A stretch of 64,000 bases of DNA, from positions 62,001-126,000 of IMG/VR virus record IMGVR_UViG_3300044701_000569, one strand, 5' to 3'. The stretch is from a virus. The position numbers were made by a program, and so were the translations under genes. The stretch's first letter is position 1, and each line of letters starts with the position of its first letter. This document shows positions 9,647 to 48,525 of the stretch, piece after piece. The notes below the pieces were generated by a model, which did not search any database, was not told where the DNA came from, and saw only the letters and a program-made list of their open reading frames with translations.

Positions 9647-10361
9647 TTGTATTGATGTGTATCAGTATGGTACTGTTGATAGATTAAGCCCTGAGGCGCC
9701 GGTTCCTATCTTTAAATATAGTCACAAAGAACAACGACCCGGCATGGCCGGCAATGTTAATAACAATTTAAAAGCATTAGGTTGCAGTGTAAACTACCTG
9801 CATACGGAAACTAGTATGAAGACTAGGCTAATTGATAGCCGTAGTAAACAGCAGATGATTAGAATTGACGACGATGTTACAGCAACACCTATTACGTTTG
9901 AAACAGACATCCCTAACATTTACGATGCTGTTGTTATCAGCGACTATAATAAAGGAACAATAACATACGAGTTGATGGAAGAAATTATTCAATGGTCTAA
10001 CCACTCAACTAAAATTCCTGTTTTTATTGATACAAAGAAAACGGACCTAGCAAGACTGCAGGGTGCGTGGGTTAAAATTAACGAATTAGAATACAGTAAA
10101 ATTAAATCTTCTTGTTCAGGATTAATTGTAACTAGAGGAGAGAAAGGTGCTGTAATTCCGCACCATGAAATTAAATTAGATGCGCCGCGTGTTGAAGTTG
10201 TTGATGTAACAGGTGCTGGCGACACGTTTCTAGCTGCTCTTGCATACAAATGGCTAGAGACAGGAAGTATAAATGCAGCATTATTTTTTGCGGTAGAAGC
10301 GTCATCAATAACTGTACAGCATGTTGGATGCTATGCGCCAACAGTGGAGGAAATAGGATGA
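9588..10361 (+). CDS. hldE: D-glycero-beta-D-manno-heptose 7-phosphate kinase (HldE N-domain, RfaE1, PfkB family)
   Basis: This would phosphorylate heptose 7-phosphate at C1 to the 1,7-bisphosphate. PfkB features are clear: LLLGDNCIDVYQYG near the N terminus, RPGMAGNVNNNLKALG for sugar binding, and VVDVTGAGDTF with the catalytic base D212. Length is 257 residues from the chosen ATG at 9588; the frame is open further upstream to 9555. It overlaps the adenylyltransferase by 59 bases. Its stop overlaps the hldD start (ATGA), so these genes are translationally coupled. Confidence 0.88.
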   Translation: MTEQNTQQQKQFRILLLGDNCIDVYQYGTVDRLSPEAPVPIFKYSHKEQRPGMAGNVNNNLKALGCSVNYLHTETSMKTRLIDSRSKQQMIRIDDDVTATPITFETDIPNIYDAVVISDYNKGTITYELMEEIIQWSNHSTKIPVFIDTKKTDLARLQGAWVKINELEYSKIKSSCSGLIVTRGEKGAVIPHHEIKLDAPRVEVVDVTGAGDTFLAALAYKWLETGSINAALFFAVEASSITVQHVGCYAPTVEEIG

Positions 10362-11179
10362 AAATACTAGTAACAGGGCACAACGGATTTATTGGTAAAA
10401 ATCTTGCCATGTATCTTACATCAAAGGGTCACGAGGTATCTGGATGGGACTATGAACCTAACACTATACCTAATCCTGAAGGGTATGACTGGGTGGTACA
10501 TCTTGGTGCTATAACATCTACAACCTGCACAGATGTAGATCAAATAATGGAACAAAATTTTGAAAACTCTGTTAGATTAATTCAAGCCTGTGATATGATG
10601 GGAGTTAATTTTCAGTACGCTTCTAGTGCAAGTGTGTACGGATCTCATCAACATTTTAAAGAAAACGGACCTTTACTACCGCAAAGTCCGTATGCATGGA
10701 GCAAATATCTATTTGATAGATTTGTTAATCAACTTAAAGACGAATTTCAAATAACTGTTCAAGGTTTTAGATACTTTAATGTATACGGTATTGGAGAAGA
10801 ACACAAAGGTGATCAGGCTAGTCCTTACACTAAATTTAGAGAACAAGCAATTTCTAACAAAAAAATAAAATTGTTTGAAGGCAGTGAAAACTACAAGAGA
10901 GATTTTGTTTGGGTAGGTGACGTATGCCGTGTGCATGAATTAATGTTGGAAAAGTCTGAGCGTGGTATTTTCAATGTAGGCACAGGATCTCCAGTTAGTT
11001 TTGACACTATAGCAAGAACCATAGCACAGCGTTATTCAGCTGAACTAGAACACATACCTATGCCTGAAAATTTACGGTCTCAGTACCAAACCTATACCTG
11101 TGCAAATTTAGAAAAATTAAACAGTGTAATTGATATGCAATGGACTAGAATAGAGGATTATATAAATGGAACAGACTAA
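10358..11179 (+). CDS. hldD: ADP-L-glycero-D-manno-heptose 6-epimerase (HldD, RfaD)
   Basis: This short-chain dehydrogenase-type epimerase would convert ADP-D,D-heptose to ADP-L,D-heptose. It has the Rossmann motif GHNGFIG (residues 7-13), YASSASVYG, the catalytic Y112-x3-K116 in SPYAWSK, and FRYFNVYG followed by FVWVGDV, all typical of HldD. It has 273 residues from the ATG at 10358, chosen because GGAGG lies seven bases upstream and the ATG overlaps the kinase stop. E. coli HldD is 310 residues. It overlaps the following cupin gene by 14 bases. Assignment as another NAD-dependent sugar epimerase is possible, but the neighbours favour HldD. Confidence 0.85.
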   Translation: MKILVTGHNGFIGKNLAMYLTSKGHEVSGWDYEPNTIPNPEGYDWVVHLGAITSTTCTDVDQIMEQNFENSVRLIQACDMMGVNFQYASSASVYGSHQHFKENGPLLPQSPYAWSKYLFDRFVNQLKDEFQITVQGFRYFNVYGIGEEHKGDQASPYTKFREQAISNKKIKLFEGSENYKRDFVWVGDVCRVHELMLEKSERGIFNVGTGSPVSFDTIARTIAQRYSAELEHIPMPENLRSQYQTYTCANLEKLNSVIDMQWTRIEDYINGTD

Positions 11180-22043: not shown

Positions 22044-22625
22044 ATGCAATTTGACGAAATATTTCCTACCTATCTAGTTAAAGACATTAATTTAAAATTA
22101 GCAGAAAAACTATTACCTCTCTGCAATAGATACACAGATGAAACAAAAACTAATTGCCTTCATATAGAAAATTTTCCAAGTACGCTGTATGATAGAGATT
22201 TAGAACGTAAGGTTATGGATGAACCTGAGGTTAAAGAAGCGTTTGATATTATCATTGAGTCTTACTTGAAGCCGTTTTTAAATCATCGAGGTATAAATTT
22301 GCCACAGCCTTTAAAACCTTTTGGGTTTTTTAGTTCAATGAAAAAGCATGCTTATCTTAGAAAGCACTGTCATTTAGATTCTTTATTTGCTGGAATAATC
22401 TATTTAGAAGTAGGTAAAGAAGTGCCACCGTTAATTCTGTATGATCCTAAACCAATGAGATCGTTCATAAACTGGCCGTTGTTACCCAACAATACTAAAG
22501 ATACCCCTCTATTGGTTATACCCCCTCAACAAGGTTTAGTATTATTGTGGGACTCGTATTTAGAACACGAGGTTCCTCAAAAATTAAATGACGAACCTCG
22601 TAAAACTTTTGTCTTTAATCTTTAA
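22044..22625 (+). CDS. 2-oxoglutarate/Fe(II)-dependent oxygenase-like protein
   Basis: This 193-residue protein has the iron-binding triad of the 2OG-Fe(II) fold: H110-x-D112 in HCHLDSLFAG and H175 in SYLEHEVPQ, with R186 in EPRKTFVFNL as the likely 2-oxoglutarate ligand. It resembles the small 2OG oxygenases common in T4-like marine phages, which are thought to hydroxylate proteins or other substrates; the actual substrate is unknown. It ends four bases inside the convergent carbamoyltransferase gene. A 9-bp stem (22567-22575 with 22593-22601) near its end may aid termination. Confidence 0.8.
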   Translation: MQFDEIFPTYLVKDINLKLAEKLLPLCNRYTDETKTNCLHIENFPSTLYDRDLERKVMDEPEVKEAFDIIIESYLKPFLNHRGINLPQPLKPFGFFSSMKKHAYLRKHCHLDSLFAGIIYLEVGKEVPPLILYDPKPMRSFINWPLLPNNTKDTPLLVIPPQQGLVLLWDSYLEHEVPQKLNDEPRKTFVFNL

Positions 22626-24421
22626 TTTTTAATCTGCACTAACTTTCCGTATTCTGGCAAATATAGATATTCTATATCACTTCTTGCCAGTGTGTCTAAT
22701 GCGTCGTCTAGTGTTTCAACTAACGGATCTCCGCCAAGATTAAAACTTGTATTAAACAATATAGGAACTCCAGTTTTTTTGTAAAACTCGTTTATTAGAC
22801 CGTAATAGTGAAGATTTTGTTCTTCTGTTACAGTCTGTATACGGCAAGTTCCGTCAATGTGAATAATGCTTGGAATTTTTTCTTCTATTCCTGGTTGACA
22901 ATTAACAGCATACATCATATATGGGGTATCTTCCATACCTCGTAAATCAAACCATTCGTGTACGTGCTCTTTTAAAATACTTCCAGCGAACGGTCTAAAA
23001 TATTCTCGTCTCTTAACATTATTTACAAATTCTTTACCATCTTTAAATCTAGGATCAAATAGAATACTTCTGTTTCCTAATGCTCTAGGTCCGTTTTCTG
23101 ATTTTCCTTGAAAAATAGCAACAATATTTTTTTCTTCTAGCAAACTAACTATTTTTAAATAGTCGGCTTCTACAATTTTACCGTTAACTTTTTCTACAGC
23201 TTGTTCTAACTCGTTATTGCTGTAAGTGTATTCAAATCCAAGATAAAGGCCATCTTTAGTGTAATCAACACAAGAGTCTGGTTGTAGATCATAATATACC
23301 AACATTGCTGCACCTATAGCAGTGCCTGCATCGTTGCTGATTGGTTCTACATACATCTTAATACCCAAGTCGTTTAATTTATTTAGATAATAGTAATTTG
23401 CAACGCAATTTAATCCGTAGCCGCCGCTTACTACTACATTCTTTTCACCTGTTAGTTCACAGGCCTTAATAATTAAATCTAAAACAAGGTCTTGTGTCTG
23501 TGTTTGAACAGCATAGGCAAGATCTCTTCTGTTTTCTAATAGCGTTACATCGTAATCATCTGTATTGCCGTGATCATTTAAAAATTTAAATATTCCGTAA
23601 TTAACTACACTACCGTTTGGATATGTAGGCACTATTAAGTTTCTATTAGAAAGAGGCAGGTCACTAGTAGAATCAAACAGTTCTGGAATCTTGTCGTTTG
23701 GTTTACCGTACGGAAATAAACCCATAGTCTTTCCTGCTTCGATGCCGGGCCAACCGCAGTATTGTGTTACTGCTTCGTATACTTTTACTATTCCAGCTCT
23801 ATCGCTTACAATAGCTTGGTGTGTCTGACCTTTTTCACCGTACATCGTACCGTCTGCATCATTTACAACAAAACAATTTTGTATGCCTCGCATTCCAACA
23901 TTTTTATAGAGTGTTTTAAAATTATTTGGATACCCGCAAGAAAAAATTGATTCTGTTTCCCATCCTATAGACTGCTCTCCATAGATATCTTTCATAGGAA
24001 TAAATGTGCCTGCTCCATCTACTATAACTGCTGCTGCACTTTTAAAACCTGATCTATAAAATGCACAGGCTGCATGTAGCTTATGGTGCATTGTGCTAAG
24101 ATCAATTACTTGAGGGTGATTAATCATATCACCCTTTCTGTCAATAAGATTTAATTTTCTAGCGAGACCAGTATAAACATCTTCGCCCATAAAATCAACT
24201 TTGCCTGCTGTATCTTTTAAAGATTGAGTGTGTGCTACTACAAGATAATCAAGTTTGTCAGTATATTCTTTTATTTTCATCATAGCAGCGTAGGGGCCGC
24301 CATCGTACTTGGCTCTTGTTAAACGTTCTTCTTCAATGCTAAAAACAATTTTTCCATTTTTTAGAAGACAAACGCTAGCATTATGTCCTCTTGCTATTCC
24401 TGCTATCCAAATATCTTTCAT
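22622..24421 (-). CDS. Carbamoyltransferase, NodU/CmcH family
   Basis: This 599-residue enzyme would transfer a carbamoyl group from carbamoyl phosphate, via ATP, to a hydroxyl, typically on a sugar. Family motifs are all present: GHNASVCLL and SIEEERLTRAKYDG at the N terminus, TMHHKLHAACAFYRSGF, VDGAG, VSGGYGLNCVANY, EPISNDAGTAIGAA, then the C-terminal domain with GPRALGNRSILFDPR, REYFRPFAGS and FNTSFNLGGDPLVET. Length is normal for the family. It lies three bases after the GT9 gene, so glycosyl transfer and carbamoylation are probably coupled. Carbamoylation of modified DNA bases is an alternative. Confidence 0.93.
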   Translation of the reverse strand: MKDIWIAGIARGHNASVCLLKNGKIVFSIEEERLTRAKYDGGPYAAMMKIKEYTDKLDYLVVAHTQSLKDTAGKVDFMGEDVYTGLARKLNLIDRKGDMINHPQVIDLSTMHHKLHAACAFYRSGFKSAAAVIVDGAGTFIPMKDIYGEQSIGWETESIFSCGYPNNFKTLYKNVGMRGIQNCFVVNDADGTMYGEKGQTHQAIVSDRAGIVKVYEAVTQYCGWPGIEAGKTMGLFPYGKPNDKIPELFDSTSDLPLSNRNLIVPTYPNGSVVNYGIFKFLNDHGNTDDYDVTLLENRRDLAYAVQTQTQDLVLDLIIKACELTGEKNVVVSGGYGLNCVANYYYLNKLNDLGIKMYVEPISNDAGTAIGAAMLVYYDLQPDSCVDYTKDGLYLGFEYTYSNNELEQAVEKVNGKIVEADYLKIVSLLEEKNIVAIFQGKSENGPRALGNRSILFDPRFKDGKEFVNNVKRREYFRPFAGSILKEHVHEWFDLRGMEDTPYMMYAVNCQPGIEEKIPSIIHIDGTCRIQTVTEEQNLHYYGLINEFYKKTGVPILFNTSFNLGGDPLVETLDDALDTLARSDIEYLYLPEYGKLVQIKN

Positions 24422-46574: not shown

Positions 46575-47018
46575 TTAGATAGCTGTTAATCGCATTACAG
46601 TTTCTGTCGAGTCGTTCTCAATAGTCCACTTGTATCTTGCGTTGTTGAAATCTCTACAAGTACGATTGAATAGTTTCTTAATACGAACCTGTGTACCACC
46701 AGTACCAACAATAGTACCTTGTATTGACATTTCATTAGCTGCTAAAGAACCAACAGCTTTGTCAACTAGTGTGCAAATTCCTACGTTACCTGTACCAGAA
46801 CCGCTTGGTGTTACCTTAGTACCTGCTTTAGTATCGTTTACTAAAAACTTGTTTGAACTACGCTGTCTTAAAATGTAGCCTTCGTCGCTAGCAGAGTTGC
46901 TGGCAACTTTTACGTTTACTGTGATGTTAAAAAAAGTTTCGTTTGATGCTGGTGCATAACGTGTATCGTCAGCGTCTGCTAACCAACCAAAGAATTTCTT
47001 ATTTACTGGACGTCCCAT
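46575..47018 (-). CDS. Conserved virion protein, 147 residues
   Basis: The N terminus is MGRPVNKKFFGWLADADDTR, followed by FFNITVNVKVASNSASDEGY and a basic C terminus (VRIKKLFNRTCRDFNNARYKW). I recall proteins with this start near the capsid genes of marine T4-like phages but cannot name a function; a head decoration or baseplate role is possible. It has a late promoter at 47086, a structured 60-base leader and a strong AAAGGAG site. Confidence 0.65.
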   Translation of the reverse strand: MGRPVNKKFFGWLADADDTRYAPASNETFFNITVNVKVASNSASDEGYILRQRSSNKFLVNDTKAGTKVTPSGSGTGNVGICTLVDKAVGSLAANEMSIQGTIVGTGGTQVRIKKLFNRTCRDFNNARYKWTIENDSTETVMRLTAI

Positions 47019-47047
47019 TTGTTTTCTCCTTTATGTTGACGTTCTAG

Positions 47048-47081
47048 GTCTACGCAGTGGGTAACTGCATAAGTCTTAGAC
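47048..47081 (-). other. Leader stem-loop of the 147-residue gene
   Basis: ACGCAGT (47052-47058) pairs with ACTGCAT (47064-47070), and GTCT (47048-47051) with AGAC (47078-47081), leaving a seven-base bulge. It occupies most of the leader between the late promoter and the ribosome site and could stabilise the mRNA or regulate translation. Confidence 0.45.
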
Positions 47082-47085
47082 AAAG

Positions 47086-47093
47086 TATTTATC
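47086..47093 (-). promoter_or_regulatory. T4-type late promoter GATAAATA
   Basis: It lies ten bases beyond the terminator of the pqqA-like gene and starts the late transcript of the 147-residue gene. Confidence 0.7.
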
Positions 47094-47102
47094 ATAAAAG
47101 AT

Positions 47103-47127
47103 AAAAGCCCAACAATGTTGGGCTTTT
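47103..47127 (-). terminator. Terminator of the pqqA-like gene
   Basis: AAAAGCCCAAC (47103-47113) pairs perfectly with GTTGGGCTTTT (47117-47127) around a three-base loop, flanked by T-rich sequence on both strands. It follows the pqqA-like stop by 15 bases. Confidence 0.88.
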
Positions 47128-47142
47128 TAAAAGAACTATAGT

Positions 47143-47214
47143 TTATCTGTTAGCAATATACATTGTAACTTCAAAACCATAGCGCATTTCTGTTGCTACT
47201 GGTTTGGTCCACAT
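47143..47214 (-). CDS. pqqA: PqqA-like PQQ precursor peptide
   Basis: A 23-codon gene encodes a peptide that begins MWTKP and ends with EVTMYIANR. PqqA is the ribosomal precursor from which PqqE, with PqqD, cross-links a Glu and a Tyr to build pyrroloquinoline quinone. The key Glu (E15) and Tyr (Y19) are in the E-V-T-x-Y arrangement, and length and positions equal those of Klebsiella PqqA as I remember it, with about 13 of 23 residues identical. AAGGAGG lies eight bases before the ATG. It has its own sigma70-like -10 box and terminator, between gp23 and a late gene. No pqqB-F gene is present, so maturation would need host enzymes. Confidence 0.85.
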
Positions 47215-47239
47215 AATGTTTTCCTCCTTTGCACTATTA

Positions 47240-47245
47240 ATTATA
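47240..47245 (-). promoter_or_regulatory. Sigma70-like -10 box of the pqqA-like gene (TATAAT)
   Basis: A perfect TATAAT preceded by TGTG lies about 26 bases upstream of the ATG. The expected start near 47233 leaves a short leader containing AAGGAGG. The -35 region (TGTTTT) is poor. No late octamer is present, so the gene is likely expressed early or throughout. Confidence 0.6.
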
Positions 47246-47300
47246 CACAGTTATAGTAGGAAAAACATACGTAAAATCATTAAAATATCATCAGTCAAAG

Positions 47301-47324
47301 AAATAGGGCCTTTCGGCCCTATTT
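47301..47324 (-). terminator. Terminator after gp23
   Basis: AAATAGGGCC (47301-47310) pairs with GGCCCTATTT (47315-47324). On the minus strand the loop is GAAA and the stem is followed by CTTTG. It lies about 25 bases beyond the major capsid stop and isolates the pqqA-like gene from the very strong gp23 transcript. Confidence 0.85.
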
Positions 47325-47349
47325 CAATTTGCTTACCTAACAGGTAGTA

Positions 47350-48525
47350 TTATCTGAAGCTTACGCTTGAAGAAGTAATACCAACAGTTGCTAGGTAGTC
47401 TGCTGCGTTACCAAGTGACGAAGCTGTGTTGGTTAGCTCAACATAACCATAACGTGTCATAAAGCTGACAGTTGGTTCGAATGTTGATGGATCTAGTACA
47501 ACACCGCTGCTCATCAATGGAATGTATGGGCAGTAGAATGCTGGAGCATCAGATTCTGAAGTTCCCTTGTAACCAATGATAACGTTAGCATTGTCAGCAG
47601 CATAAGTGTTGACATATACCTTCATTGCATTGTTTAGAGTACCAACTAGCTTTGTGTTAGTTGGAGCTTCAAACGTACCTTCTGTAGTACGTGCAAATGC
47701 TGATGTTGTTGCGCTCTGTAGAATTGTTAGTGCAAATGGTGAAACTACAGCGTAGTTACCAGCACCACGACGTGTACGCTGAGCGATTAGGTTTGCTGCA
47801 CGGTTGATTTGAACAGCTAGTGCAGCATGCTCGTCACCAACAAATGTAGCAGTACCGCTAACAGCAGTCTGGTCGTATGTTTCTACAGCAGCACCAGCTA
47901 GAGTGTTTAGCGAAGCTAACACTTCCTGGTCGATTTCAGCTGTAATTTCTTGAGCAAGAGCAGCCATAATTTCTGCTTCTACGTCGATGCCATGCATAGA
48001 CTGTGCGTCTTGTGCAGCTTCGAAAGTCCAACGTGCGCTGAGCTTACGAGTCTTGGCTTCAACTGTTTGCTTCAAGATTTGAATGCTTAGTCTGTTACCA
48101 GCAACACCTTCTAGCGCAGCAGTTGCGTCTGCCTTAGCTGTTGAAGTATTGCCTGAATAGGCTTCAGCAATCTTAAATGGGCTTAGAGCTTCTTCACCTG
48201 CAACTGCACCTGAAGCGCCTGAGCCTGCTGTGTCCGCATAGCGAACACGTAGAGTGTGGATTTGACCCACGGGTCCTGTCATTGGCTGAACACCAACTAA
48301 CTCGTTAGCAATAACGGTTGGCATCACACGACGGATGACTGGTAGGATAACACGGTTTAGTGTTGCGACATTACCGGCAGAAGTAGCACCAGCAGTAGCA
48401 CTTTCTGCAAGATACCTACGGGTATTTTCCAGTGTAGTGGCCATTACTGACTTTTTGTTGCCTTGAAGGCCTTCAAGAAGTGCTGCTTTTGTATCCTGCC
48501 AGCGACTTTCTAGTAGTTCTGACAT
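47350..48525 (-). CDS. gp23: Major capsid protein gp23
   Basis: This is the main head protein, of HK97 fold. Typical gp23 segments are NRVILPVIRRVMPTVIANEL, GVQPMTGPVGQIHTLRVRY, RKLSARWTFEAAQDAQSMHG and the C-terminal FMTRYGYVELTN. The 391-residue length is short compared with T4 gp23 (521), and the T4 insertion domain is missing, as in other marine T4-like phages. Possible gp21 cleavage sites of L-x-E type occur near the N terminus (LLEG at about 17-20 and YLAES at about 38-42). It is ten bases after gp22 with AAGGAG and is followed by a strong terminator. Confidence 0.97.
   Translation of the reverse strand: MSELLESRWQDTKAALLEGLQGNKKSVMATTLENTRRYLAESATAGATSAGNVATLNRVILPVIRRVMPTVIANELVGVQPMTGPVGQIHTLRVRYADTAGSGASGAVAGEEALSPFKIAEAYSGNTSTAKADATAALEGVAGNRLSIQILKQTVEAKTRKLSARWTFEAAQDAQSMHGIDVEAEIMAALAQEITAEIDQEVLASLNTLAGAAVETYDQTAVSGTATFVGDEHAALAVQINRAANLIAQRTRRGAGNYAVVSPFALTILQSATTSAFARTTEGTFEAPTNTKLVGTLNNAMKVYVNTYAADNANVIIGYKGTSESDAPAFYCPYIPLMSSGVVLDPSTFEPTVSFMTRYGYVELTNTASSLGNAADYLATVGITSSSVSFR

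Follow-up and report, generated by a model that had tools for sequence, protein, structure and literature searches.

A stand-alone pqqA cassette in a T4-type jumbo phage and its counterparts in methylophages as a probable supply of PQQ substrate

A pqqA gene in a T4-type jumbo phage

The window, a 64,000-nucleotide stretch of a virus record of 357.6 kb, encodes a PqqA peptide downstream of the gene for the major capsid protein gp23. This gene is probably a functional phage-borne moron that would provide host enzymes with the substrate that PQQ synthesis uses up and thereby sustain methanol oxidation; its transcription, processing and benefit to the phage we infer from sequence comparisons. The first-pass annotation had noticed a PqqA-like peptide with an E-V-T-x-Y motif. 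Searches with curated profiles confirmed that the ORF belongs to the PqqA family and is, by this measure, a bona fide PqqA, with scores of 35.0 bits against TIGR02107 (cut-off 20) and 32.0 bits against PF08042 (cut-off 21.1). The Glu-x-x-x-Tyr pair, whose residues form the PQQ skeleton, is present as E15-V-T-M-Y19, and the C-terminal end of the peptide is IANR. A degenerate PqqA DNA motif matched once in the window and in none of 100 shuffles, and no second PqqA was found in the whole 357,559-bp record.

The phage is a T4-type jumbo phage. Besides gp23, which is 65-70% identical to that of jumbo T4-type phages such as PA5oct, GAP32 and CBB, the window carries the myovirus markers portal gp20, tail-sheath stabiliser gp15 and a sheath protein. 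As such, pqqA, a metabolic gene of host origin, sits in a bona fide virus genome, and isolated phages carry the gene too. In the structural region of the phage, a carbamoyltransferase gene and an NAD-dependent epimerase gene were also seen (22622-24421, minus strand, and 10250-11179, plus strand, respectively).

Table 1. Features of the pqqA region, in window positions
Feature	Position	Strand	Basis
147-aa gene downstream of the cassette, hypothetical	46575..47018	-	no PHROG match; kept in relatives
freshwater-2 RNA (RF02980), leader of the next gene	47016..47094	-	55.7 bits, gathering score 49.9; outside the pqqA cassette
pqqA cassette, stretch missing from the matching gap of L269	47103..47299	-	empty-site alignment
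Intrinsic terminator of pqqA, AAAAGCCCAACATTGTTGGGCTTTTATCTTTTA, 11-bp stem	47103..47127	-	terminator scan
pqqA CDS, 23 aa (stop included)	47143..47214	-	TIGR02107 and PF08042 over cut-off; conservation
Shine-Dalgarno AAGGAGG	47223..47229	-	sequence; 8 nt from pqqA ATG
TATAAT, possible -10 box	47240..47245	-	sequence; weak
Hairpin downstream of gp23, homologous to the terminator that gp23 has in relatives	47300..47325	.	scan and alignment of relatives
gp23 major capsid protein, upstream neighbour of pqqA	47350..48525	-	phrog_138, E 5e-100

Cassette organization and expression signals

Related jumbo phages differ in whether and where they hold pqqA. In contig L269, whose gp23 is 93% identical, no pqqA separates the gp23 hairpin from the freshwater-2 leader and the gene behind it, and the alignment with this empty site delimits the cassette sharply (to ~10 bp) upstream, while its downstream edge is blurred by similar terminator sequence. 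The matching gap holds pqqA in the opposite orientation in L306 (gp23 87% identical); L338 has it there on the same strand, preceded by an additional small ORF. In the 356-kb jumbo phage G069 (gp23 86%) the gene lies ~74 kb away from gp23. Overall, two of 17 related jumbo contigs carry pqqA; the hosts of the 15 negatives are not known, and most of these are fragments. The cassette was not seen with any mobility gene or terminal repeat. Considering the empty site, the inverted copy and the distant copy, pqqA behaves as a phage moron cassette in which insertion and an own terminator are found and a promoter is tentative.

In this clade, the gap that follows gp23 is also a hot spot for structured RNAs. 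Here manA-like RNAs (below the gathering score) or glutamine riboswitches occur in L306 (4437-4637), L273 (4285-4485) and L277 (4756-4962) and in L270 and L338 (4234-4281). In the window, the freshwater-2 RNA extends to the ATG with which the 147-aa gene starts, and the motif precedes the homologous gene in L269, L270, L272 and L273. An origin of the pqqA leader from a manA-type RNA found in relatives, with which it shares ATAGTGCAA, was considered and dropped: cmscan of the window detected no manA, and this 8-mer is common there.

The first-pass annotation had described a stand-alone unit with its own -10 box, strong ribosome site and terminator, insulated from gp23 by another terminator. The architecture as such was borne out, including the ribosome site and the pqqA terminator (Table 1), and the promoter proved to be its weakest element. 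The TATAAT is a perfect hexamer, but it has neither a recognisable -35 nor a TGn extension, a promoter scan scored none on the pqqA strand, and such hexamers are not enriched upstream of genes here (6 seen versus 4.1 expected). An upstream motif of this phage, ATAAATAC, is absent before pqqA, so that any pqqA promoter is probably of the host sigma-70 type. An extended -10 shared by the phage pqqA copies was likewise rejected (5 seen versus 3.4 expected). The insulating hairpin after gp23 is present, and relatives have an intact T-run there; in the window, the minus-direction T-run is broken up and partly degraded (TTTCTTTGAC), which is why the terminator scan scored it on the plus strand only. 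Elsewhere in the window, ATAAATAC and NATAAATA cluster strongly ahead of ORFs (7 of 8 ATAAATAC copies lie within 150 nt before ORFs versus 0.4 expected) and are a likely candidate for the late promoter of this phage.

Occurrence of pqqA in phages

The window peptide was searched by tblastn against 50,697 phage records (INPHARED) with E up to 10. Twelve records were hit, comprising nine Methylophilales/Methylophilaceae phages (Venkman, Melnitz and three variants, MEP301, MEP401, MEP402 and P19250A), one uncultured podovirus and two contigs labelled 'Acinetobacter phage MD-2021a'. The last two, CAKLQF020000010.1 and CAKLQH020000055.1, resemble bacterial chromosome, and the first holds ppk as well as pqqABCDE; they were taken as chromosomal and not counted, because the contig examined has the whole operon. 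Klebsiella, Pseudomonas and Acinetobacter make PQQ. Since a second tblastn query with an Acinetobacter-type PqqA returned the identical set of records, there is no PqqA in the phages of these three genera in the collection, as far as the two query peptides detect it.

Among IMG/VR contigs, at least 135 encode a PqqA peptide (at least 120 by a general motif and 15 more by a second), and six isolated methylophage types carry the gene, which answers the first-pass concern that the gene might lack conservation in relatives. Phages sharing the gene may share little else: 4-6 kb stretches of MEP301 or MEP402 match other methylophages largely through the ~75-bp pqqA. Within the Venkman lineage, defined by relatives of its YqaJ gene, pqqA was found in 29 of 31 members at 60% identity or more and in none of 34 below. 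It is not universal, since only four of 39 relatives in the MEP402-like lineage have it at that site. The neighbouring genes of phage pqqA fall into 118 clusters, and in two unrelated capsid families (phrog_138 and phrog_371) pqqA follows the major capsid gene. The upstream neighbour lies on the opposite strand in 59 of 131 copies, and such copies therefore probably need their own promoter.

As the first-pass annotation had expected of so short a gene, pqqA escapes ordinary ORF calling. None of the phage records examined annotates it, the gene being either intergenic or overlain by an ORF call on the opposite strand. Moreover, PHROGs has no family for PqqA, and the gene goes unmentioned in the papers on MEP301, MEP401/402 and Melnitz. 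Phage pqqA has probably been overlooked on account of its length of 23 codons.

The host of the jumbo phage

To place the peptide among bacterial ones, the signature WT.P...EMR[FY]GFEVTMY was scanned against 84,980 species genomes and gave at least 120 loci; among the 80 matches listed, the carriers were Methylophilaceae or unclassified beta/gamma MAGs. The phage peptide type thus looks essentially like that of Methylophilaceae. Four phage peptide variants are letter-for-letter the same as host peptides, with DNA 89-100% identical. On the peptide, the host of the jumbo phage is most likely a PQQ-making methylotroph of the Methylophilaceae, in line with the methylotroph guessed at first pass.

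The supply function might also be served in a host outside the Methylophilaceae, some other beta- or gammaproteobacterium. The window peptide, with its IANR end, has at least three differences from every host peptide compared, and those closest to it, at 3 differences, belong to unclassified beta/gamma MAGs (L186, L136 and L170); several IMG/VR peptides are, in addition, of the DLR/DIR type. However, EMR[FY]GFEVTMY serves in effect as a signature of Methylophilaceae among the matches listed, and all named phage hosts are Methylophilales. We therefore regard a host from another family as unlikely, if still a serious alternative. Other PqqA types with a DLR, DIR, DVR or DMR core were seen on IMG/VR contigs L034, L072, L087, L091, L124 and L131, possibly phages of other PQQ-making proteobacteria.

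Host genomes themselves hold pqqA in excess. By our own tally, 27 genomes contain 103 pqqA (1-12 each), and each of the 25 in which pqqC was found has exactly one. Scattered or tandem copies, up to 12 with a single pqqC, were seen in Methylophilaceae genomes at L144, L152, L155 and L170 and in G050 (behind L190). That hosts amplify pqqA and not pqqC points towards substrate supply. At the same time, the marginal gain from a phage copy is not obvious, because the hosts already hold several.

Selection on phage pqqA

Among 129 distinct phage pqqA DNA sequences, pN/pS was 0.18 with a pS of 0.59; as this pS is near saturation, the true ratio is lower. Positions outside the search pattern, e.g. R11, are fixed or nearly so, and codons vary. 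In a scan freed from bias by a pattern specifying only the N-terminal half of PqqA, E-[VI]-T-x-Y with the cross-link Glu and Tyr was kept in 120 of 120 scored copies. Of 142 phage pqqA, 132 have an AGGA core no more than 18 nt from the start, versus 9 of 140 in a control stretch, and a terminator-like hairpin follows within 90 nt in 78 of 140 versus 11.8 expected. Judged by these comparisons, phage pqqA is under purifying selection.

Such conservation is hard to reconcile with pqqA as a passenger, be it selfish or neutral, that moves as a small mobile cassette between phages and hosts with no benefit to the phage. The cassette behaviour seen in L269, L306 and G069 and the identity of DNA between some hosts and phages would fit a passenger. 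Strong purifying selection with drift at the codon level, the retention of Shine-Dalgarno and terminators, the high retention in the Venkman lineage and the lack of any mobility gene or terminal repeat seen with the cassette speak against it, as does the confinement to methylophages among the 50,697 records, one uncultured podovirus aside. We consider a passenger improbable.

It is very unlikely that the peptide is a PqqA only by descent and serves another role, as a signal, a regulator of methanol-oxidation genes or a lysis or virion function. The recurrence of pqqA right behind a major capsid gene, with two capsid families that are unrelated, would suit such a role, but the variable residues are the same as in host PqqA, the processed core does not vary, and the host restriction agrees with PQQ use.

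Pqq enzymes and methanol dehydrogenase in pqqA phages

A complete viral PQQ pathway was not found. No PqqE over the cut-off was detected in 42 pqqA phage records and no PqqD in 10 phage records, and no pqqBCDE adjoin the IMG/VR pqqA copies in the sequence stretches examined, to which the search for PqqB and PqqC was confined. Radical-SAM matches in the record G000 fell below the cut-off for PqqE, and a PQQ_2 propeller match (G000:254045-254482) was rejected as a dehydrogenase with 22.7 bits against a cut-off of 27.6. Methanol dehydrogenase TIGR03075 is absent from the record of the window's phage and was found in one of 48 pqqA phage records. An XoxF-like methanol dehydrogenase and pqqA share one phage contig (L053; G014, 72,356 bp), at ~33.9-35.8 kb (L360). 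This XoxF-like protein has a 628-residue frame with WDYDGIN and makes a second case resembling Baikal VP_266.

Since no pqq enzymes were found in the phages, any effect of phage PqqA would act through host enzymes. This also gives room for a decoy or brake, in which an excess of phage peptide saturates PqqE/PqqD, lowers host PQQ and redirects carbon or energy. However, the four host-identical variants are indistinguishable from substrate, the cross-link Glu and Tyr were never lost, and the methanol dehydrogenase on one pqqA phage contig argues for more methanol oxidation, not less. Given phage peptides that match host ones letter for letter, we rejected the decoy as extremely unlikely. Among the functions offered at first pass, a boost to host PQQ and the feeding of a limiting precursor are thus favoured by the sequence comparisons, and the decoy is not.

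Discussion

The reading that we prefer is that phage pqqA supplies substrate for PQQ. In an infected PQQ-making methylotroph, the phage would produce extra PqqA peptide, Glu15 and Tyr19 of which would be cross-linked by host PqqD/PqqE, and PQQ would be completed by a host protease, PqqB and PqqC. More PQQ would keep the PQQ-dependent methanol dehydrogenase (XoxF/MxaF) loaded, and the loaded enzyme would maintain energy and C1 supply for phage replication. In the established biochemistry of the pathway, each PQQ made uses up one PqqA, whereas the enzymes act repeatedly (PMC9851590). Because one PqqA is destroyed per PQQ, PqqA would be the part that needs resupply once host transcription falls. 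In Gluconobacter, overexpression of single genes increased PQQ most with pqqB, followed by pqqA and then the others, as quoted in PMC7936290. The medium published for OM43 has 1 nM PQQ in it, enough perhaps to hide an effect of phage PqqA in culture.

The phage peptide resembles PqqA of Methylophilaceae and other proteobacteria in length, in the core G-F-E-V-T-M-Y and in its score against the curated families; unlike the bacterial genes, those of phages lie by themselves among virion or replication genes, with no pqqBCDE alongside. Phage morons are promoter-ORF-terminator units located between phage genes. The pqqA unit is like them in standing alone, in having an empty site in a close relative and in its variable location, and differs in that its cargo is a consumed cofactor precursor and its promoter is weakly supported. 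Cyanophage psbA resupplies D1, a fast-turnover part of host energy metabolism. The likeness lies in the resupply of a fast-consumed part of that metabolism, and the difference is that psbA encodes a working protein subunit, whereas the pqqA peptide itself becomes the cofactor. Multicopy pqqA is known in methylotrophs, with five copies in a PQQ-producing methanol strain (PMC9851590) and a multicopy case in Methylovorus MP688 (Ge et al. 2015, as cited in PMC9851590). There too, extra unlinked copies exist besides the pqqABCDE operon, but they are chromosomal, not viral.

Viral pqqA is itself already known, from 2020 and again from 2026. The Baikal virus VP_266 is T4-like with a putative Methylophilaceae host and carries PqqA and methanol dehydrogenase (Microbiome 2020, PMC7678222). 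It shares with our case a viral PqqA, a probable methylotroph host and a proposed PQQ/methanol role, and differs in that the window phage is a jumbo phage in whose record methanol dehydrogenase was not found. In the same paper, P19250A is said to have none of the AMGs reported there, yet it does carry pqqA, unannotated. Viral 'pqqA, pqqE, pqqD' were listed as phosphate-solubilising AMGs in reservoirs (PMC13188868, 2026); in the portions of that paper drawn on here, viral pqqA is read as phosphorus cycling, with no analysis of host restriction, anatomy or conservation.

What is new here is the breadth of occurrence and the annotation blind spot. A search of the collection found pqqA in every methylophage type that it revealed, a search that pqqA-free methylophages would escape. 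The stand-alone cassette form, the occurrence in jumbo phages and the evidence, from sequence conservation, of selection as an intact substrate are new as well. Taken all together, we lean, by a modest degree, towards pqqA as an overlooked auxiliary gene that is a hallmark of Methylophilaceae phages, common to lineages as unrelated as small podoviruses and siphoviruses, T4-type phages and jumbo phages, and towards a 'consumable substrate' class of such genes, in which the virus gives the peptide from which a ribosomally made cofactor arises and the host all enzymes.

Methylophilaceae (OM43, Methylopumilus and relatives) are major methanol oxidisers in coastal seas and lakes. If their phages routinely carry pqqA, surveys of viral metabolic genes that use ordinary gene callers would miss it, as happened in several published methylophage genomes and papers, and pqqA would be a simple sequence marker by which uncultured viruses, including this jumbo phage, could be assigned to methylotroph hosts. 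In that case, too, the supply of PqqA, and not the Pqq enzymes, is likely to be limiting during infection.
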